This document shows positions 5,231 through 38,361 of a stretch of DNA of 51,801 nt, one piece after another. The DNA is taken from NCBI GenBank assembly GCA_030037775.1, contig JASHQB010000237.1:1-51801 (forward strand), read 5' to 3'. The notes below the pieces were generated by a model. That model searched no databases. It had not been told where the DNA came from and saw only the letters and a program-made list of their open reading frames with translations. Source of the stretch: Candidatus Acidiferrales bacterium (GTDB lineage: Bacteria; Acidobacteriota; Terriglobia; Acidiferrales; UBA7541). A program made the position numbers and the translations under genes. Numbering within the stretch: the first letter of the stretch is position 1; each line of letters opens with the position of its first letter.

Positions 5231-6709
5231 TCAGGCGTAGCGGAATAGCGCCATAAACCCATAGTCCATGTGCTGCTGGATATGGCAGTGAAACAGCGTG
5301 AGGCCCGGCTGGTCGGCGACCAGATCAACCGCTGCGCGTCCAAACGCGGGCACGATCACCGTATCTTTCTTGATGCCGGCAGTTGGCTTGCCGTTGAGCT
5401 CGACAAGTTCGAACAGGTGCCGGTGCATGTGCAGCGGGTGAGAATCATCGCTGCGATTGTGAAACACCAGCCGATAGCGCCTTCCCTGCCGTAACGCGAA
5501 TTCCCGTTCATGCGGATATTCCTTGCCGTTCACGAGCCAGTGATTGATCCCGTGCGGTCCGCCCGGTACTTTTTCAAAGACCATGTCAATGGTCTGATCT
5601 GGCAGGGGATGCACAGCGGGCTTGCCAAAGATGGTGTAGTCCCAGCGCGCGTTCGCAGGCGGAAGCCATTGCGGGCGTGGTTGTACCTGATTGGCATACT
5701 CCACCACGATGCCCATGCCGGATTGCCGCGCGGCATCCCGCAGCTCTCCTAATATCCAAACTCCCGGAAGATTCATCTCCACGATCGCATCCACGCGCTC
5801 ACCTGGGGCGATCTCAATCAGGTCGACCCGCTGAGGTGTGGGCACGGAATTACCGTCGAGAGCGATCACCTGAAAGTGGTGGCCGAACAGACCTATGCGA
5901 TGAATTTGCGAAGCGCTGGCGTTGAGCAGGTGCATCAGGATGCGCTGACCAAACCGCACGCGGAGGGGATCCCCGGCGCCGAGCATCTTGTCGTTGATAG
6001 AATAAAGAGGAGCGCCGACCTCGAGTCCGTTCGGACGCGGGTCTGGAGTGGCGGGTTTCTCAGGCATCGGATCGTTGGGATCCGCCGGCCCCTCGTCTTG
6101 GTCCATCGTGGTTAGAAAGTATTCCCATTCACGCAGCGCGAGAAAGACTTCCTGGTCGTAGAGCCCCGGGTCATTCGCGGAATCGATCATGAGAAAACCG
6201 AATTGGCCGGTGTAGGAGCCCCGATGTAGATCCATCATGGCTGCGGTGTGCGAGTGGTACCATCGCGAACCTGCCGGCCTGGCCACGAATTGATAGCGCC
6301 GCCGGCCGTGGGGCGGGACCGGCGGCGTGCCTTCTTCTTCCGCCCCATCCACATTCGACGGAACTAACAGGCCGTGCCAATGCACGTATTCCGGAACGTC
6401 CGTGTCGTTCAGAACTTCCACCATAACGCGCTGGCCCTCGCGCACCCGCATGAGCGGACCGGGGACTTTATTGCTGTAGCCGATCGTGCTGATGACAACC
6501 TGGGGGCTCAGCTCGACCGTCGTCGGTGCGATTCGCAGAGTGAAATCCGCCGCGCGCCCGGTGGCCCTAGGTTCCAACGTCGACATGAGATGCGGCGGCG
6601 ACTCCGGAACCTGGACCGCTAGAGACGGCGCGAGCGCGGGCCGTAGCTTGCCTGCGCCTGCCGCGATCACGGTAGCGCATCCAAGCCGCACAAACTCCCT
6701 CCGGTTCAT
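5231..6709 (-). CDS. Tat-exported multicopper oxidase (laccase-like)
   Basis: The 492-residue protein starts with a twin-arginine signal (NRREFV, hydrophobic stretch, cleavage near residue 27). All four copper motifs of a three-domain multicopper oxidase are present: HWHG (110-113), HSH (152-154), HPLHMHRH (424-431) and HCHIQQH (474-480). They supply the type 1 and trinuclear type 2/3 copper sites that couple substrate oxidation to reduction of O2 to water. The residue five after the last type 1 histidine is Phe485, not the usual bacterial Met; this is the axial position. The protein is periplasmic by prediction. It lies 231 bp upstream of the phosphatase on the same strand, with which it shares an upstream motif. 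The natural substrate (metal or phenol) cannot be read from sequence. Confidence 0.93.
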   Translation of the reverse strand: MNRREFVRLGCATVIAAGAGKLRPALAPSLAVQVPESPPHLMSTLEPRATGRAADFTLRIAPTTVELSPQVVISTIGYSNKVPGPLMRVREGQRVMVEVLNDTDVPEYVHWHGLLVPSNVDGAEEEGTPPVPPHGRRRYQFVARPAGSRWYHSHTAAMMDLHRGSYTGQFGFLMIDSANDPGLYDQEVFLALREWEYFLTTMDQDEGPADPNDPMPEKPATPDPRPNGLEVGAPLYSINDKMLGAGDPLRVRFGQRILMHLLNASASQIHRIGLFGHHFQVIALDGNSVPTPQRVDLIEIAPGERVDAIVEMNLPGVWILGELRDAARQSGMGIVVEYANQVQPRPQWLPPANARWDYTIFGKPAVHPLPDQTIDMVFEKVPGGPHGINHWLVNGKEYPHEREFALRQGRRYRLVFHNRSDDSHPLHMHRHLFELVELNGKPTAGIKKDTVIVPAFGRAAVDLVADQPGLTLFHCHIQQHMDYGFMALFRYA

Positions 6710-7846: not shown

Positions 7847-10024
7847 GTGAAGACGGTAACGATGGATCGAACGGTACAGTCTCCCCCACATGGCCTATCA
7901 CGCGGCGGACCCAGGAAGGATGGGTTGGGTCTCTTTTCGGTCGAGTCTGTGCTCAAGCTGCAGAAGCTGATTTTTGCCGGCTCTCCTCTATCCGAAGTTC
8001 TAACCCACATTGTCCAATTGGTTGAATCGAAAGCTGAAGGAATGTTTTGCACGATCTGGCTGCCAGGTGAAGAGGGAAACTATCTCTATTGCGCTGCAGC
8101 ACCGACTCTTCCTGGATTTAGCGAGCACATGGGACAAACGAAAATCTGCCCGAAAGGCGCATCCTGCGGCACCGCCGTTTACCGCAGAGAGCCGGTATAT
8201 GTGACCGACATTCTTACAGAGCCCAGTTGGGATGACTATCGCCACCTGATGGTACCTTACGGGATTCGCTCTGTGTGGTCGCGGCCTCTGTTCTCGAGTG
8301 AAGGCACGGTTCTCGGTACCTTCGCCATGCTCTATCGTGAAGCGCGCAGTCCGGACGCTAAGGACTTGCAGCTGATTGAAAATGCCAGCCACGTCACCGG
8401 CATTGCGATTGAGCGCCATCTCAAGGAACAGGCCTTGCAGCGCGAGCGCGATCGGCTGCGGTTGCTTCTGGAGATTACCAACAGCGCCACCTCCAAGCTG
8501 GATTTTCGCGGACTCGTTGAGGTGCTTTCGAAGGGTCTGCTGAGTGTCACGCGATCCGATTTTTGTGCCTTGCTCCTACCGGACGACGATAGCGAGCAAT
8601 TGAGACTCACAATTCTTTACAACCCGGAGCCGCGAGGTGCGCTCTGCGACGGAGAAACCATACCAGTCCGCGGTGCGCCCTGTGGTAAGGCCTTCCGGAC
8701 CGGCAAGACTCAGTACTTTAATAGCCTCGAAGAGGTACGGGATGATCCCGAAAGTTACGGCAGTGAGGTGGGCCGACGTTTCATTGAACGGACCATGGCG
8801 GAGGGTTTGATGTCGGGATGCGATCTCCCGCTTATCGGGCGAAACGGCGTGGTCGGAGTACTGGCCGCGATAAAGCGGTCCGAGAACGCTTTTTCCAAAG
8901 ACGATATTCGTTTTCTTGAACAGGTTGCCGGCCAAGTGGCCATCGCTGTTGAGAACGCATTGGACTATGAGACGGCGATCAAAGACAGAGACCACGAGAC
9001 GAAACAAAGACGCTATCTCGAGGAGGAAGTTCATGCCGAGTTTGGTGAAATCGTCGGAGAGAGCTCGGCGTTGAAAACCGCTTTGAGCCTAGCGTCTGTC
9101 GTGGCACCGACGGATTCGAGCGTGCTGATCCAAGGGGAGACGGGAACGGGCAAAGAGCTCGTTGCGCGTGCGATACACAAACTAAGCACTCGCAGCCAAA
9201 AACCATTCGTGAAACTGAATTGCGCCGCGATACCTCTGGGACTTCTTGAAAGTGAGCTGTTCGGTCACGAAAAAGGAGCGTTTACTGGTGCCATCGCTCA
9301 AAAAACGGGGCGCTTCGAGCTCGCCGACAAAGGCACGCTTTTTCTTGACGAGGTTGGCGACATCCCTCTCGAACTTCAGGCAAAGCTGCTGCGCGTTTTG
9401 CAGGAGCAGGAATTCGAGAGGCTCGGCAGTAACCGCACCCACAAAGTGGACGTCCGGCTGATCGCAGCCACGCATCGTGATCTGCCAGCGATGGTGAAGC
9501 AAGGGAAATTTCGCGAGGATCTTTACTATCGTTTGAAAGTATTTCCGATTCAAGTTCCGACCTTGCGGCAGCGCAACGACGACATTCCGCGATTAGTGGA
9601 ACATTTCACAGCGCTCTTCACTCGACGTATGAACAAACGAATTGACGCGATCCCTCCCGAGACGATGCGCGCGTTGGTACGATACGAGTGGCCGGGAAAC
9701 ATCCGTGAGTTGCAAAACTTCATTGAACGCGCGGTGATTCTCTCCCCAGGATCGATATTGCACGCTCCAACCTCCGAGCTCGAATCGTTGCCGAGTTCCA
9801 AGAAGACCGATGTCATGATGAACGGTCTCGCAGAAGTGGAGCGGGATCACATCCTTCGTGCACTGGAAGCGAGCAACTGGGTGATCGGCGGGCCGACGGG
9901 CGCCGCCGAGCGCTTGGGCATGAAGCGAACATCGCTGCTCTACAGGATGAAGAAGCTTCGCATCAGCCGGCCCGCTTTGGCCCCACAGCAACGGAGCGTC
10001 GCTGCGGGGGCTGGCGACGACTGA
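7847..10024 (+). CDS. Sigma-54-dependent activator, GAF-GAF-AAA+-HTH (FhlA-like)
   Basis: The protein has about 725 residues with the GTG start at 7847; ATG 7862 is an alternative that shortens it by five residues. Two GAF sensor domains (about 40-185 and 205-370) precede an AAA+ domain. The AAA+ domain has Walker A GETGTGKE (about 429), the sigma-54 contact loop GAFTGA (about 475) and Walker B TLFLDEV. A Fis-type helix-turn-helix is at about 680-715. The GAFTGA loop shows that it should open RNA polymerase-sigma-54 complexes. There is no receiver domain, so the signal is probably a small ligand or redox cue bound by the GAF domains. Two sigma-54 promoters with paired upstream sites begin directly downstream (10082-10862) and are its likely targets. 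Confidence 0.95.
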   Translation: MKTVTMDRTVQSPPHGLSRGGPRKDGLGLFSVESVLKLQKLIFAGSPLSEVLTHIVQLVESKAEGMFCTIWLPGEEGNYLYCAAAPTLPGFSEHMGQTKICPKGASCGTAVYRREPVYVTDILTEPSWDDYRHLMVPYGIRSVWSRPLFSSEGTVLGTFAMLYREARSPDAKDLQLIENASHVTGIAIERHLKEQALQRERDRLRLLLEITNSATSKLDFRGLVEVLSKGLLSVTRSDFCALLLPDDDSEQLRLTILYNPEPRGALCDGETIPVRGAPCGKAFRTGKTQYFNSLEEVRDDPESYGSEVGRRFIERTMAEGLMSGCDLPLIGRNGVVGVLAAIKRSENAFSKDDIRFLEQVAGQVAIAVENALDYETAIKDRDHETKQRRYLEEEVHAEFGEIVGESSALKTALSLASVVAPTDSSVLIQGETGTGKELVARAIHKLSTRSQKPFVKLNCAAIPLGLLESELFGHEKGAFTGAIAQKTGRFELADKGTLFLDEVGDIPLELQAKLLRVLQEQEFERLGSNRTHKVDVRLIAATHRDLPAMVKQGKFREDLYYRLKVFPIQVPTLRQRNDDIPRLVEHFTALFTRRMNKRIDAIPPETMRALVRYEWPGNIRELQNFIERAVILSPGSILHAPTSELESLPSSKKTDVMMNGLAEVERDHILRALEASNWVIGGPTGAAERLGMKRTSLLYRMKKLRISRPALAPQQRSVAAGAGDD

Positions 10025-10081
10025 CTTCTTCACCTCGGCGTTGTCTGTCCGCGCATCGGGAGGTTTCCTGCGACGGGACCT

Positions 10082-10121
10082 CGTCAGTGGCGGATCTCCG
10101 TCGCAAGTCCGTCAGGCGCGG
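10082..10121 (+). promoter_or_regulatory. Upstream activator site 1 (UAS1)
   Basis: This 40-bp site is identical at 32 positions to UAS2 (10718-10757). It begins with CGTCAGTGGCGGA, close to a palindrome built on TCCGTCA/TGACGGA, and holds two further TCCGTC units. It ends 92 bp before the GG of promoter P1, a usual enhancer distance for sigma-54 activators. That the activator at 7847-10024 binds it is inferred. Confidence 0.7.
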
Positions 10122-10210
10122 CAAATCTCGGTTACCATCCGTACCTGTATATCTTCAGCCAGCAGAGTAGTTTAGATCCGCTCCAACCGTTTGATTCGAA
10201 CGTTGCCTAC

Positions 10211-10226
10211 TTGGCACCTCGCTTGC
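10211..10226 (+). promoter_or_regulatory. Sigma-54 promoter P1 (-24/-12)
   Basis: The sequence TTGGCACCTCGCTTGC has the invariant GG and GC dinucleotides ten bases apart and matches the TGGCAC-N5-TTGC consensus. Transcription would start near 10238 and run into a possible 39-codon frame and the DUF2934 gene. Confidence 0.8.
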
Positions 10227-10252
10227 CCTCACCACAACCAGGAAAGGCACCA

Positions 10253-10372
10253 ATGTCAATCTTCGCGTGCTCAGCGACATTTCAACTGCCAAACCTGGAC
10301 GGATCCCAGCGAATAGTGCCCCGCACTCTTGCGCGAATTCATGGAAGGGTTCTCCAGCCACCATGGACCTAA
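10253..10372 (+). CDS. Possible 39-residue small protein after P1
   Basis: An ATG at 10253 is preceded by AGGAAAGG at good spacing and opens a 39-codon frame (start MSIFACSATF, end LQPPWT). It lies between promoter P1 and the DUF2934 gene. No family is recognised. It may be a real small protein or leader peptide, or chance. Confidence 0.3.
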   Translation: MSIFACSATFQLPNLDGSQRIVPRTLARIHGRVLQPPWT

Positions 10373-10393
10373 AAAGGTACACGAGGGGGAAGA

Positions 10394-10588
10394 ATGCCGG
10401 AACATCAGAGCAAAGCCGTCAGCCACGAGGAAGTAGAAAAGAGGGCGTACGAGCTTTATCTCCAACGAGGCGCGGAACACGGACACCACGAGGAGGACTG
10501 GCTGCTGGCGGAAGCTCAGCTATTAGAAGAACGCATTCGCAACCGCGCGGTTCCTGCGTCTCAGAAGGGCAGGGACGCGCCACGGTGA
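10394..10588 (+). CDS. DUF2934 small protein
   Basis: The 64-residue soluble protein carries the DUF2934 signature: EKRAYELYLQRG at about 14-25 followed by GHHEEDWLLAEAQLLEE at about 29-45. Such proteins are common in acidobacteria and proteobacteria; their function is not established. A GGGGGAAG ribosome site lies just before the ATG. The gene is downstream of sigma-54 promoter P1 with a leader of about 155 nt. It is likely part of the regulon of the neighbouring activator. Confidence 0.85.
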   Translation: MPEHQSKAVSHEEVEKRAYELYLQRGAEHGHHEEDWLLAEAQLLEERIRNRAVPASQKGRDAPR

Positions 10589-10717
10589 CGAGGGTGAGTT
10601 TTCTTGCGCGTCAAATTCTTCGCGGCACGCGCGGCCGCTTTTGTCGCGGCTGGCCTTTCTCGAATCCCGCCCGGCATCACCGATTCTGGTGTTGCGACGA
10701 CAGGCGCGACCAAAATC

Positions 10718-10757
10718 CGTCAGTGGCGGAAATCCGTCAGAGATTCGTCAGGCGTGG
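10718..10757 (+). promoter_or_regulatory. Upstream activator site 2 (UAS2)
   Basis: Second copy of the 40-bp site, 32/40 identical to UAS1. With the base before it, it contains TCCGTCAGTGGCGGA, a near-perfect inverted repeat, then TCCGTCAG and TTCGTCAG. It ends 92 bp before the GG of promoter P2, the same spacing as UAS1 to P1. Confidence 0.7.
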
Positions 10758-10846
10758 TTCGAGATTTGTCGGGATCCCCTCCTCGCAATCTACTGCGCCG
10801 CAACCATTTGCAATGGATGACACCTCTTCGAGTGAACTTTGTCTTT

Positions 10847-10862
10847 TTGGCATGTCATCTGC
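10847..10862 (+). promoter_or_regulatory. Sigma-54 promoter P2 (-24/-12)
   Basis: TTGGCATGTCATCTGC has GG and GC exactly ten bases apart and a good -24 box; the -12 box is CTGC. The start site would be near 10874, giving a leader of about 48 nt before the first DM13 gene at 10922. It lies exactly 636 bp after P1. Confidence 0.75.
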
Positions 10863-10921
10863 GTTAAAGACCAGCGCCTCTAGGCGTTCAGGAGAAGGTA
10901 AGAACTAAAGGAGACAACTCA

Positions 10922-11955: not shown

Positions 11956-12001
11956 GCGGTTCGTCACTTACGCTAAAGACACAGAAGTGAGGAGAAACTT
12001 T

Positions 12002-12952
12002 GTGCGTGAAGCGAGGTCACAAACAGCAACAAAACGCGCAGCGCCAAGCCAGGACGTTGGTCGATTCAGCGTGCCTATTACAACCATTCATAAGGTGGAA
12101 GCCGACGGTGTACAGGTGTTTTACCGCGCAGCGGGCGAAGCGAACGCGCCTGTAATTCTCTTGCTTCACGGATTCCCAACCTCGTCTTTCATGTTCCGCG
12201 AACTCATTCCACGCCTCGCCAGTGACTACCGTGTGATCGCGCCGGACCTTCCCGGTTTCGGATTCACCGAGGTCCCGCACGAACGAAAATACGTGTACTC
12301 CTTTAACCAATTGGCGCTCACGATCGAGGCATTCACGCGGGCGGTCAAGGTCGACCACTACGCAATCTATGTGTTCGATTACGGGGCACCGACAGGCTTT
12401 CGTCTGGCGATGGTGCACCCCGAACGGGTAACCGCGATTGTTTCGCAAAACGGGAACGCTTATGAAGAAGGGCTTGGTGATGCTTGGGATCCAATCCGAA
12501 AATACTGGGCGGCACCCACAGCGGAGAATAGAGACATCCTCCACAAAAGCATTTTGACAGACGGCGGAACGCGCTGGCAGTACACCCACGGCGTAGCGAA
12601 TCCAGAGAGTATCCCTCCCGAGTCGTACACGCTTGACGCGGCTCTCCTCGAACGCCCGGGGAACAAAGAGATTCAGCTCGATTTGTTCTTGGATTATGCC
12701 TCGAACGTAAAGCTCTATCCGAAATTCCAGGAGTACTTGCGCAAGTCGCAACCGCCTTTGCTGGCGATCTGGGGCAAGAACGATCCTTTCTTCATTCCCG
12801 CAGGAGCCGAAGCGTATCGGAAGGATATACCTGACGCCGAGGTGCAGTTCCTCGAGACCGGCCACTTTGCGCTGGAAACTCACGTAACGTACATCGCTGC
12901 CGCGATCCGTGATTTTCTGGGCCGCAAGCTTCCCACACACGCGAGCGCGTGA
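12002..12952 (+). CDS. Alpha/beta hydrolase, haloalkane dehalogenase/epoxide hydrolase type
   Basis: The 316-residue protein is read from GTG 12002, which sits 7 nt after AGGAG. The oxyanion-loop motif HGFPTSS is at about 53-59. The nucleophile elbow reads YVFDYGAP, so the nucleophile is Asp, as in haloalkane dehalogenases and epoxide hydrolases, not Ser as in esterases. The acid is likely in WGKNDPFF and the base is the His of ETGHFALETH. It is cytoplasmic by prediction, although the first 25 residues are extra. It lies in the plus-strand run after P2. The substrate is unknown. Confidence 0.88.
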   Translation: MREARSQTATKRAAPSQDVGRFSVPITTIHKVEADGVQVFYRAAGEANAPVILLLHGFPTSSFMFRELIPRLASDYRVIAPDLPGFGFTEVPHERKYVYSFNQLALTIEAFTRAVKVDHYAIYVFDYGAPTGFRLAMVHPERVTAIVSQNGNAYEEGLGDAWDPIRKYWAAPTAENRDILHKSILTDGGTRWQYTHGVANPESIPPESYTLDAALLERPGNKEIQLDLFLDYASNVKLYPKFQEYLRKSQPPLLAIWGKNDPFFIPAGAEAYRKDIPDAEVQFLETGHFALETHVTYIAAAIRDFLGRKLPTHASA

Positions 12953-13015: not shown

Positions 13016-14338
13016 ATGGAAAGCCCCCGGCCAATGCGAATCCTCATCCTTGGCGGTGGTTTTGCGGGGCTTACGGTTGCTATGGAGTTGGAGAGGCGTC
13101 TCGGTCGGGATCCGTCCGTCGAGATCACCCTCGTAAATCGGGAGAACTTCTTCCTGTTCACTCCGATGTTACACGAAGTGGCGGCCAGCGACTTGGATCT
13201 CACGACAATAGTGAACCCGGTTCGGAAGCTGTTGCGACGCGTCCAATTCTTCGCTGGGGAGGTTGACCGGATCGATCTCGAACAAGGAAATGTCCGTGTC
13301 GCTCACGGTTTTGATCATCATCCGCACACGCTTGACTTCGATTTCCTCGTTTTAGGTTTGGGCAGCGTCACAAATCTTTATGGCATTCCAGGCCTGCAGG
13401 AGCATGCGCTTACGATGAAGAGCTTGAGCGATGCGATGCGGCTACGAAACCATTTGATCGCCCACCTGGAAGAAGCCGACAGCGAGTGCTGCAAGGTGAA
13501 AGGACCACTTGTGACGTTTGTCGTTGCTGGCGGGGGATTTGCCGGGGTTGAGACGGTGGCGGCAATCAACGATTTTGTTCGGAGTGCTCTGCGCTCCTAC
13601 CCGAACCTGACCGAAGACATGTTGCGGGTCGCCCTGGTCCATTCCGGCCCGGTCATCCTGCCCGAATTGAAGGCACAGTTGGGCGCATACGCAGAACGAA
13701 AGCTAAGGCGGCGCAAACTGGAGATCCGCTTGAACACAAAGGTCGAAAGCTTTTCTGGCACCATCGTGCAACTTAGTGACGGAACAGAAATTCACACCAA
13801 CACTCTCGTTTGGACCGCGGGTGCCTTTCCCAATCCTCTGCTCGAGTCCATACCATGTGAAAAAGAACGCGGTCGTTTGCTTGTAACGGAGTTTCTCGAG
13901 GTCCAAGGCCGACCGGGCATCTGGGCGCTAGGGGATTGCGCTGCGATACCAGACCGGCGGAAGGGTGGATTCCACCCGCCAACGGCACAACATGCGCTTC
14001 GCGAGGCCAAAGTGGTGGCTCACAACATTGTCGCGAGCTTACGGGCGAAAAAGACCAAGCGGTTTGCCTTCTCCACGATCGGTCAGCTTGCGGCGATTGG
14101 CCGACGGACCGGCGTCGCCAACATTTGGGGGATCAATTTCTCGGGGTTTGTCGCATGGTGGCTGTGGCGAACGATCTACCTCAGCAAACTTCCGAGGTTT
14201 GAAAAAAAGCTGCGCGTTGCCTTCGATTGGACGCTGGACCTCATTTTTTCAAAGGACCTGGTCCAGTTCCTCGACATCAAGGCGCCGATGATCTCGCGGC
14301 CAGAAGTGGACTCCAGCAGTCCGAACCTTCCGTTATGA
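13016..14338 (+). CDS. Type II NADH dehydrogenase (NDH-2)
   Basis: The 440-residue FAD protein has two Rossmann motifs. The N-terminal one, ILGGGFAGLTVA (about 10-21), binds FAD; VVAGGGFAGVETVA (about 163-176) binds NADH. ALGDCAAIP (about 305) is the usual flavin-contacting segment. The C-terminal part, with WWLWRTIYLSKLP, fits the amphipathic membrane-association region of NDH-2. These enzymes pass electrons from NADH to quinone without pumping protons. The start may instead be ATG 13034, giving MRILILGGG. It is downstream of the two DM13 genes, suggesting a shared role in an electron-transfer process; this is inference. Confidence 0.9.
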   Translation: MESPRPMRILILGGGFAGLTVAMELERRLGRDPSVEITLVNRENFFLFTPMLHEVAASDLDLTTIVNPVRKLLRRVQFFAGEVDRIDLEQGNVRVAHGFDHHPHTLDFDFLVLGLGSVTNLYGIPGLQEHALTMKSLSDAMRLRNHLIAHLEEADSECCKVKGPLVTFVVAGGGFAGVETVAAINDFVRSALRSYPNLTEDMLRVALVHSGPVILPELKAQLGAYAERKLRRRKLEIRLNTKVESFSGTIVQLSDGTEIHTNTLVWTAGAFPNPLLESIPCEKERGRLLVTEFLEVQGRPGIWALGDCAAIPDRRKGGFHPPTAQHALREAKVVAHNIVASLRAKKTKRFAFSTIGQLAAIGRRTGVANIWGINFSGFVAWWLWRTIYLSKLPRFEKKLRVAFDWTLDLIFSKDLVQFLDIKAPMISRPEVDSSSPNLPL

Positions 14339-14505: not shown

Positions 14506-15345
14506 ATGGAGCGTCGCAACTTTCTCGGGGCGCTTGCAGCAGCATCTCTGGGCGTCGTACTCGATAGCACTTTCAGTGAATCTGCGAGAGCGCGAGACAC
14601 CGCGCATGCGTCGACGGCAAGCTCACTTAGGCACGTGGCCAAAACGAGCGAATTTCCTCAGAACTCCACGATAATTTTGGTGCATGGAGCGTGGGCGGAC
14701 GGCTATTGCTGGAGCAACATCATACTCCCTTTAGAGCAGCGCGGCCTCAAAGTGATCTGCGCGCCGATCCCGCTCACGTCCTTAAGCAATGACACGGCCG
14801 CTTTGACTTGGGCGCTAGAACGGACGAGCGGGCCCGTAGTCCTCGTAGGGCACGCTTATTCAGGCGCCGTGATCGCTGCTGTGCGGGACGATCGAGTCAA
14901 CTCTCTGGTCTATATCGCAGCACTCGCGCCCGATGAGGGCGAGACTGTAGCGAAGGTGTTCTATCGTGACACACCGAGTCTGGAACAGCCCAAGATGGTT
15001 CCGGATTCGCATGGCTTGGTATGGATGCCGGACGATGCGTTTCGGAGAGCGCTTGCCCACAAGGCATCGCTCGATCAAGCGAGAATTGCCACTGCTGTGC
15101 AACGGCCAATTGCGGTTCAGTGCATTCAAGAGCCCGCGCCAACACCGCTATGGAAATCAAAACCGTCGTGGTTTTTGATCGCAGAAGAAGACCGGATGAT
15201 CAATCCGAAAACTCAACATTTCATGGCGGCTCGCATGGGCGCAACAGTTCGGTCGCATCGTGTGGACCATACCCCGATGTATTCGGAGCCGGGAGTGGTG
15301 GTCGAGGTGATTTTGGAAGCAGCACGAAAGACCCTTTCGCAATAG
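14506..15345 (+). CDS. Exported alpha/beta hydrolase, GHAYS subfamily
   Basis: The 279-residue protein has an N-terminal MERRNFLG signal (twin-arginine-like, signal to about residue 28). It has the alpha/beta hydrolase motifs LVHGAWADGYCW and VLVGHAYSGAV. The nucleophile elbow, normally GHSxGG, reads GHAYSG, so the expected Ser is Ala and a Ser sits two residues later. The catalytic His is present in RVDHTPMYSEP. It is closely related to the hydrolase at 23925, which keeps GHSYGG. The GAGGAGAG ribosome site is good. A weak GG-N10-GC element (14359-14372) lies in the 167-bp gap before it. It may be non-catalytic or belong to a subfamily with altered chemistry. Confidence 0.82.
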   Translation: MERRNFLGALAAASLGVVLDSTFSESARARDTAHASTASSLRHVAKTSEFPQNSTIILVHGAWADGYCWSNIILPLEQRGLKVICAPIPLTSLSNDTAALTWALERTSGPVVLVGHAYSGAVIAAVRDDRVNSLVYIAALAPDEGETVAKVFYRDTPSLEQPKMVPDSHGLVWMPDDAFRRALAHKASLDQARIATAVQRPIAVQCIQEPAPTPLWKSKPSWFLIAEEDRMINPKTQHFMAARMGATVRSHRVDHTPMYSEPGVVVEVILEAARKTLSQ

Positions 15346-15443
15346 TTTGATCGTTGCAAGAGCCGTTGCGAAGGCCCGTCGACTACGCAAGGCATTTTCG
15401 CGAGATTAGGCCAGCGGGCTATCTAGTTAGAAGAGGTCGTCAC

Positions 15444-16217
15444 ATGGGAATCAAATCTGTTGCCATCGTAACCGGTGCCAGTCATGGTATAGGAAAGGCC
15501 ACCGCAATTCGTCTTGCCCGCGACTTTTCAGCACTTGTACTTGTTGCTCGGGACGCGGACAATCTGGAAAAAACGGCAAACGAAGTTAGGCCTCTAGGTG
15601 CCGAAGCGATGGTTCGCGCGCTCGATCTTCGTGATCCAGAAGCCGCGGGAACCGTCATCGCAGACACGATCGAACACTTTGGCAGGATCGACGCCTTGCT
15701 GAATATCGCGGGGGCAGTGCCCCAAATTGATCTGTTCGAGATGACGGACGCGCAGTGGGACGACGGCCTGGCCCTGAAGTTCCACGGGGCGCGTCGACTG
15801 ACGATATCGGCTTGGGAAGCTCTGAAGGCTTCGCAGGGTTCCGTCGTATTGATCTCTGGAAGCGCTGCGCTCGATCCGAAGCCCGGATTTGCGGCAGTTG
15901 CGGCGATTAACGCGGCCATAATTGCGCTCGCGAAAGCATTCGCAGAGCAGGGAATCAAAGATGGGATTCAGGTCAACAGCGTGGTCCCTGGGCCTGTGAT
16001 GACTGGACGCCGCCAGTCTTTCTTCGAAAAGTGGGCGCCTGCACACAATCTCACCGTCGAAGATGCAATTAAAAAGTTCCCGGAGGAAGTAGGAATTAGT
16101 CGTTACGGAAAACCCGAAGAGATCGCCGGTTTGCTGGCTTATCTCGTCTCCCCTATGGCGAAGTGGATGACGGGGGCTTCGGTCCGGATGGACGGCGGTG
16201 AGATCAAAACCATCTAG
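15444..16217 (+). CDS. Short-chain dehydrogenase/reductase (atypical)
   Basis: The 257-residue protein reads from ATG 15444. The NAD(P)-binding motif TGASHGIG (about 12-19), NIAGAVPQ in place of NNAG, and the C-terminal SVRMDGGEIKTI mark the SDR family. The catalytic Ser is present (LISGS), but the usual YxxxK is replaced by VAAIN within GFAAVAAINAAI, so Tyr and Lys are absent. Either it belongs to a divergent subfamily or it no longer catalyses standard SDR chemistry. It is the last plus-strand gene of the run that begins at P2, 98 bp after the hydrolase. Confidence 0.85.
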   Translation: MGIKSVAIVTGASHGIGKATAIRLARDFSALVLVARDADNLEKTANEVRPLGAEAMVRALDLRDPEAAGTVIADTIEHFGRIDALLNIAGAVPQIDLFEMTDAQWDDGLALKFHGARRLTISAWEALKASQGSVVLISGSAALDPKPGFAAVAAINAAIIALAKAFAEQGIKDGIQVNSVVPGPVMTGRRQSFFEKWAPAHNLTVEDAIKKFPEEVGISRYGKPEEIAGLLAYLVSPMAKWMTGASVRMDGGEIKTI

Positions 16218-38058: not shown

Positions 38059-38361
38059 ATGGCAACCCCGATGAGCAAGTCCAAGATTATCGCCTATCTC
38101 GCCGAGAAGGTGAGTACCAAGGACAAGCCGGTGTCAAAGAAGCAAACCGCGACGTTTTTCGATGAACTGTTCAACCTCGCCGTGAAGGAATGCAGGGGCG
38201 TGGGCAAATTTGTAATCCCAGGCATCGGACGTGCCGTGAAGGCGCACCGCAAGGCGCGCATGGGGCGCAACCCGGCGACCGGAGAGGCGATCAAGATTAA
38301 GGCCAAGACCGTGGTTCGCCTTCGCGCCGCCAAAGCTTTCAAAGACGCAGCTCTCAAGTAG
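38059..38361 (+). CDS. HU-family DNA-binding protein
   Basis: The 100-residue basic protein matches the HU/IHF fold: SKSKIIAYLAEK, the FFDELFNLAVKE helix, GIGRAVKAHRKARMGRNPATGE (DNA-binding arm with the RNPxTG tip) and a C-terminal VVRLRAAKAFKDA. It compacts DNA and bends it. ATG 38059 follows AGAGGAG. A long GC-rich stem (ACCCCGGCG ... CGCTGGGGT, 38391-38437) lies 30 nt after the stop and may act as a terminator or stabiliser, though without a T-run. Confidence 0.93.
   Translation: MATPMSKSKIIAYLAEKVSTKDKPVSKKQTATFFDELFNLAVKECRGVGKFVIPGIGRAVKAHRKARMGRNPATGEAIKIKAKTVVRLRAAKAFKDAALK

Follow-up and report, generated by a model that had tools for sequence, protein, structure and literature searches.

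The locus considered here raises the question of whether two predicted sigma-54 promoters, each preceded by a similar putative activator site at exactly the same distance, belong to a control system run by the activator gene next to them, and what their equal spacing means. The window, the whole stretch of DNA that was analysed, is 51,801 nucleotides long. Judged from sequence comparison, its core of activator, activator sites (UAS) and promoters is very probably a real and conserved control system, which probably serves a stress response. The elements of this core are:

7847-10024, + strand: sigma-54 activator (bEBP) with the Pfam domains GAF1, GAF2, Sigma54_activat (AAA+, with GAFTGA) and a Fis-type HTH_8
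10082-10121, + strand: UAS1, putative activator site; inverted repeat TGGCGGA-TC-TCCGTCG with flanking CGTCAG direct half-sites
10211-10226, + strand: P1, -24/-12 promoter by sequence motif, TTGGCACCTCGCTTGC
10718-10757, + strand: UAS2, putative activator site; TGGCGGA-AA-TCCGTCA with flanking direct half-sites; module profile (see below) E 2.4e-24
10847-10862, + strand: P2, -24/-12 promoter by sequence motif, TTGGCATGTCATCTGC

Two predicted promoters and the adjoining activator

UAS1 and UAS2 are identical at 32 of 40 bases, in agreement with the coordinates and letters of the initial annotation; after 300 dinucleotide shuffles of the region 10025-10921, its 40-mers matched each other at 27 bases at best (mean 23). 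The TCCGTCA-type inverted and direct repeats described there were also recovered and could be sharpened to a consensus, CGTCAgTGnCGGAnaTCCGTCAcannTTcGTCAG, which consists of the inverted repeat TGnCGGA-N2-TCCGTCA and flanking direct half-sites. The 92 bp given for the distance from the end of the 40-bp UAS to the GG is correct at both promoters when counted to the first G. The 636-bp offset between the two sets is right as a figure, but carries no further information, because equal UAS-promoter spacing forces it. Both P1 and P2 contain the GG-N10-GC of a -24/-12 element, in which GG and TGC are invariant in an alignment of the relatives. The motif alone proves no promoter, since the perfect matches to TTGGCAY-N5-YTGC in the whole 4.19-Mb genome (seven, P1 and P2 among them) are not above those to the reversed control pattern (ten). 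A scan of the same genome for further UAS found two copies only, UAS1 and UAS2, and rpoN is encoded in this genome (G000:C272, E 6.5e-60).

The activator gene ends at 10024, 57 bp upstream of UAS1 as first annotated, and its product has the Sigma54_activat domain, GAFTGA and C-terminal HTH of a bEBP. FhlA is the closest NCBIfam model, at 511 bits against a cut-off of 830, and the NorR model was matched with 360 bits against a cut-off of 476; these curated scores rule out an FhlA or NorR equivalog. By its predicted domains the activator is FhlA-like in architecture: the FhlA-type activators, known from E. coli formate hydrogenlyase, likewise combine two GAF domains, an AAA+ domain with GAFTGA and a Fis HTH. 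Unlike FhlA, the protein scores below the cut-off, no hydrogenase or formate genes were seen behind its sites, and the letters of the UAS differ from FhlA-like motifs, which have been summarised as TGT/ACA inverted repeats (PMC6615313). NorR, which responds to nitric oxide, is also a GAF-gated bEBP acting with sigma-54 on a neighbouring promoter, whereas the present activator has an extra GAF domain and three GAF1 cysteines, and no flavorubredoxin target was seen. A search of open-access literature found nothing on point concerning acidobacterial enhancer-binding proteins. Upstream of the activator lies a multicopper oxidase gene (5231-6709, - strand), before which no module was found.

Conservation of the module and of its spacing

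Of 299 genomes examined from the class, 16 carry an activator ortholog with 67-80% identity, namely the window's genome and 15 relatives; more distant paralogs have about 45-57% identity. A sequence-only profile of the 151-bp module, which comprises UAS and -24/-12 element, was scanned over the same 299 genomes. All 25 strong matches lie in 15 of the 16 genomes that carry an ortholog, and none was found in the 283 class genomes that carry none (Fisher p = 2e-24). The comparison which the initial annotation had named beforehand as able to refute its reading, namely the search for conserved sites beside activator orthologs, thus revealed conservation (15/16 against 0/283), and this co-occurrence of site and activator across genomes is what marks a regulon of a single activator. 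Modules outside the training set were recovered in G186, G194, G120 and G250 (E 4e-19 to 3e-10). The sixteenth genome (G255) has a UAS-only match (E 3e-4), with a promoter about 54 bp closer. Directly downstream of almost every ortholog for which downstream DNA was available there is one UAS and one -24/-12 promoter; in the exception (L005, in G194) the module lies on a different contig from the activator, before an abh1-abh2-SDR operon. Of the self-contained regulon next to its activator that had been annotated, the link between module and activator stands, but the regulon is not always local, as some modules are on other contigs.

Among 396 genomes of the phylum that were drawn separately, no strong module was found beyond the window's own genome, and a weak match in G066 came besides; a search of the same draw with the N-terminal half of the activator returned only the window's own ortholog and one partial match (G467). 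The weak module in G066 (L123, G066:C33:231233-231376) has an intact palindrome and a GG offset of 98, and precedes a class II aldolase, as is also seen at L083. Despite this module, G066 yielded no close activator ortholog, which counts against strict co-occurrence; L123 is an orphan or is served by a different activator. Weak matches in G230 and G241 look like chance or remnants and were set aside. The one in G241 (L124, G241:C127), a partial UAS match beside a transposase-like reading frame, is possibly a module remnant.

For the comparison of spacing, the offset was taken between the final base of the 34-bp UAS core and the first G of GG; the 92 bp above is the same distance measured from the 40-bp UAS end. 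This offset is 95-98 bp in 25 of the 27 modules with a recognisable TGG[CT], and 86 and 102 bp in the remaining two; L084, the module with 102 bp, can also be read five bases closer. In at least 19 modules the spacing is kept while their spacers are mutually diverged (<45% identity; all-pair median 30%) and their UAS are about 68% identical. Because these spacers can no longer be aligned, the geometry appears to be selected and not merely inherited. The modules also precede different genes, occur in either orientation relative to the activator and in some genomes lie on contigs other than the activator's, which makes passive descent of one block hard to uphold. The equal distance applies to the module family as a whole and is not peculiar to the P1/P2 pair. 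This fixed geometry is unusual beside the sigma-54 regulons of Clostridiales, where comparative genomics also found activator-specific UAS, mostly beside the activator, with UAS-promoter distances mostly scattered over 100-250 bp (PMC6615313).

The pair in the window could instead be an old local promoter duplication in which equal spacing was inherited, as the similarity of UAS1 and UAS2 and their identical spacing might suggest. The spacers of P1 and P2 are only 38% identical, near the all-pair median, and each has its closest counterparts in other genomes: that of P2 among abh1-operon promoters of relatives (up to 59%) and that of P1 in an EgtB promoter (L079, 49%). For these reasons P1 and P2 belong, on sequence grounds, to separate lineages within one promoter family and did not arise by recent tandem copying. 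Together with the same spacing behind unalignable spacers, varied genes and both strands, this comparison largely refutes a local duplication, which we consider very improbable. The exact phasing had been annotated as a sign of either function or an ancient promoter duplication; function is favoured by the spacing held in 19 diverged modules, whereas the duplication is contradicted by the spacers. Nor do we give any real credence to the UAS pair being an artefact of a dispersed repeat family without regulatory role. The same 34-40 bp does occur twice here and in several copies in some relatives, but with two copies in the genome, a promoter always at the fixed distance, one co-occurring activator and unrelated flanks this reading is refuted.

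A third conserved element between UAS and promoter

Alignment of the spacers revealed a third conserved element, CAGAAnnAYTTR, midway between the UAS and the -24/-12 element, which the initial annotation had overlooked. In the window it is present at both promoters:

10166-10174, + strand: middle element of P1, AGTAGTTTA (AR-N4-TTR), with its TT 41 bp ahead of the P1 GG; possible bend site of the IHF/HU type
10802-10810, + strand: middle element of P2, AACCATTTG (AR-N4-TTR), with its TT 41 bp ahead of the P2 GG

Within AR-N4-TTR, the TT and the following R are present in all modules (27/27 each), the A six bases before in 22/27 and the R five bases before in 26/27, and in 25 of the 27 modules GG follows the TT at 39-42 bp. 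The score for the element was reached by 22 of the 27 modules, whereas 2000 shuffles gave 1.7 modules on average and 7 at most. Two natural exceptions to the geometry are at hand. In L083_7039 the distance from the middle element to GG is 11 bp shorter, about one turn, and in G255 (L082) the middle element is absent and a CGGCAC-N6-TGC promoter is nearer by about 54 bp, or some five turns.

The E. coli IHF consensus is WATCARNNNNTTR, and at RpoN promoters IHF commonly sits between enhancer and promoter (PMC7962754). AR-N4-TTR corresponds to the core of this consensus, while its WATC half is not conserved in the modules. Three genes of the HU/IHF family (PF00216) are present in the window's genome. 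One of them (38071-38349, E 3e-18) lies in the window and encodes a candidate binder of the middle element. Upstream of other -24/-12 motifs in the 299 genomes the middle element was not in excess (about 12 non-module matches against 13 of the reversed pattern), and the idea of a general sigma-54 companion was dropped. A UAS-free -24/-12 promoter in the window's genome (L133, G000:C210:17911-17926, - strand) has AGAATGACTTA, with TT 43 bp before GG and so near its place in the modules, and precedes a response-regulator-like gene.

From the sequence of its core we put the chance that the middle element is bound by a bending protein of the IHF/HU type at about even. The lack of excess at other -24/-12 motifs means that the element may instead belong to a dedicated regulator, and the missing WATC half points in the same direction. 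On this reading a second, dedicated regulator would occupy the element, or the activator would make a second contact there, with the spacing set by protein-protein contact between two regulators. This is quite possible, if short of an even chance, since AR-N4-TTR fits the IHF core, the interval between enhancer and promoter is the usual place of IHF (PMC7962754), the UAS-free promoter of the same genome carries the element at 43 bp, and no second regulator gene stood out as a constant neighbour on an unsystematic look.

With a bending protein at the middle element, the layout would by analogy work like an IHF-assisted sigma-54 promoter such as TOL Pu of the XylR system, where the orientation of the bend matters (PMC3900584). 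Pu has the same order of UAS, bend site (putative in the modules) and -24/-12 element. Unlike this single studied promoter, the modules repeat one geometry at least 19 times in diverged form, with another activator class and another UAS. Their offsets of 95-98 bp set them apart from the scattered distances in Clostridiales.

Target genes, and a proposed signal and mechanism

The genes behind the two promoters of the window are:

10394-10588, + strand: DUF2934 small protein (Pfam PF11154, E 7e-12), first recognisable gene after P1
10922-11377, + strand: DM13 protein a (Pfam DM13), first gene after P2
11446-11955, + strand: DM13 protein b (Pfam DM13)
11987-12952, + strand: alpha/beta hydrolase abh1; haloalkane dehalogenase-like matches below cut-off; commonest gene behind the modules of relatives
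13016-14338, + strand: NDH-2-like FAD oxidoreductase, by domain search
14506-15345, + strand: alpha/beta hydrolase abh2, kept behind abh1 in relatives
15354-16217, + strand: SDR oxidoreductase, kept behind abh2 in many relatives

The commonest target set across genomes is abh1-abh2-SDR, often with DM13. Other targets include EgtB (ergothioneine synthase), above its NCBIfam curated cut-off, a MerA/RclA-like flavoprotein reductase and an RclC-like DUF417 protein, neither of which reaches its equivalog cut-off, a class II ketose-bisphosphate aldolase, an aquaporin, DUF7482 and a lactonase-like propeller. Within about 10 kb around the activator there are five modules in G290 (L083) and three in G263 (L087), followed by genes for EgtB, aldolase, aquaporin, and RclC-like and RclA/MerA-like proteins. 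The target gene set suggests defence against oxidants or electrophiles. RclA- and RclC-like targets, again below equivalog cut-offs, link some relatives to the reactive-chlorine regulon RclR/rclABC of E. coli; RclR belongs to another regulator class and acts on another promoter type than the present sigma-54 system.

Cys68, Cys82 and Cys107 of GAF1 are invariant in 17/17 orthologs, and none of these positions has a cysteine in 14 paralogs; the invariance weighs less because GAF1 is strongly conserved overall. In the predicted GAF1 structure, a confident model (pLDDT 91, pTM 0.87), the cysteines occupy two neighbouring strands and the beginning of the helix after next. A fold search matched, among others, free methionine-R-sulfoxide reductases and GAF domains that bind ligands, and Cys107 lies within a CGTA-type motif that is also seen in other GAF domains. 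Catalytic identity with free-methionine-sulfoxide reductase is not claimed, because presumably only the CGTA cysteine corresponds.

Gene content in other genomes and the conserved cysteines make us tentatively favour an oxidant or electrophile, sensed by the GAF1 cysteines, as the inducing signal, at somewhat less than an even chance. The regulon might alternatively answer a metabolic inducer in the fashion of XylR, such as an aromatic, epoxide or halogenated substrate of the hydrolases and SDR. The predominance of abh1-abh2-SDR among the targets and the binding of small ligands by GAF domains, which the fold search also returned, are consistent with this, while the EgtB, RclA/MerA-like and RclC-like targets point to oxidant stress and the three invariant GAF1 cysteines also speak against it; we regard a metabolic inducer as possible but rather doubtful.

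For the redox reading we propose a thiol/redox-responsive stress regulon in which activation passes through a rigid bent loop. UAS1 and UAS2 would be bound by the activator whose gene adjoins them upstream, with an oxidant or electrophile acting via the GAF1 cysteines as the probable inducer. The midway site, of which an IHF/HU-type bender would be the likeliest occupant, would impose a fixed bend, so that the bound activator would contact the sigma-54 polymerase waiting at P1 or P2, 92 bp from UAS end to GG, and open the promoter. P1 would drive the DUF2934 small gene, and P2 would drive DM13a-DM13b-abh1 and probably also the downstream NDH-2, abh2 and SDR genes. We propose that the near-invariant spacing of all three parts results from the fixed bend at the middle site. 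A rigid bend fits with the sole clear departure that retains an intact middle element (L083_7039) being one helical turn.

More broadly, and with doubt outweighing confidence, the family may represent an undescribed class of thiol-gated FhlA-like activators of Acidobacteria, which would control oxidant and electrophile defence (EgtB, RclA/RclC-like proteins, hydrolases, SDR, DM13) from a three-part promoter fixed to about 2 bp. Activator sites of sigma-54 promoters were named enhancers because their distance is flexible, and changes in distance are usually held to be tolerated; a geometry fixed to about 2 bp would, if true, run contrary to this view. A natural family of modules with diverged sequence and fixed geometry, including the exceptions of about -11 bp and of about -54 bp with the middle element lost, makes it possible to test cleanly when selection acts on loop geometry. 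In a phylum that has been little studied, a putative binding site, a likely regulon and a candidate cysteine sensor become open to testing.
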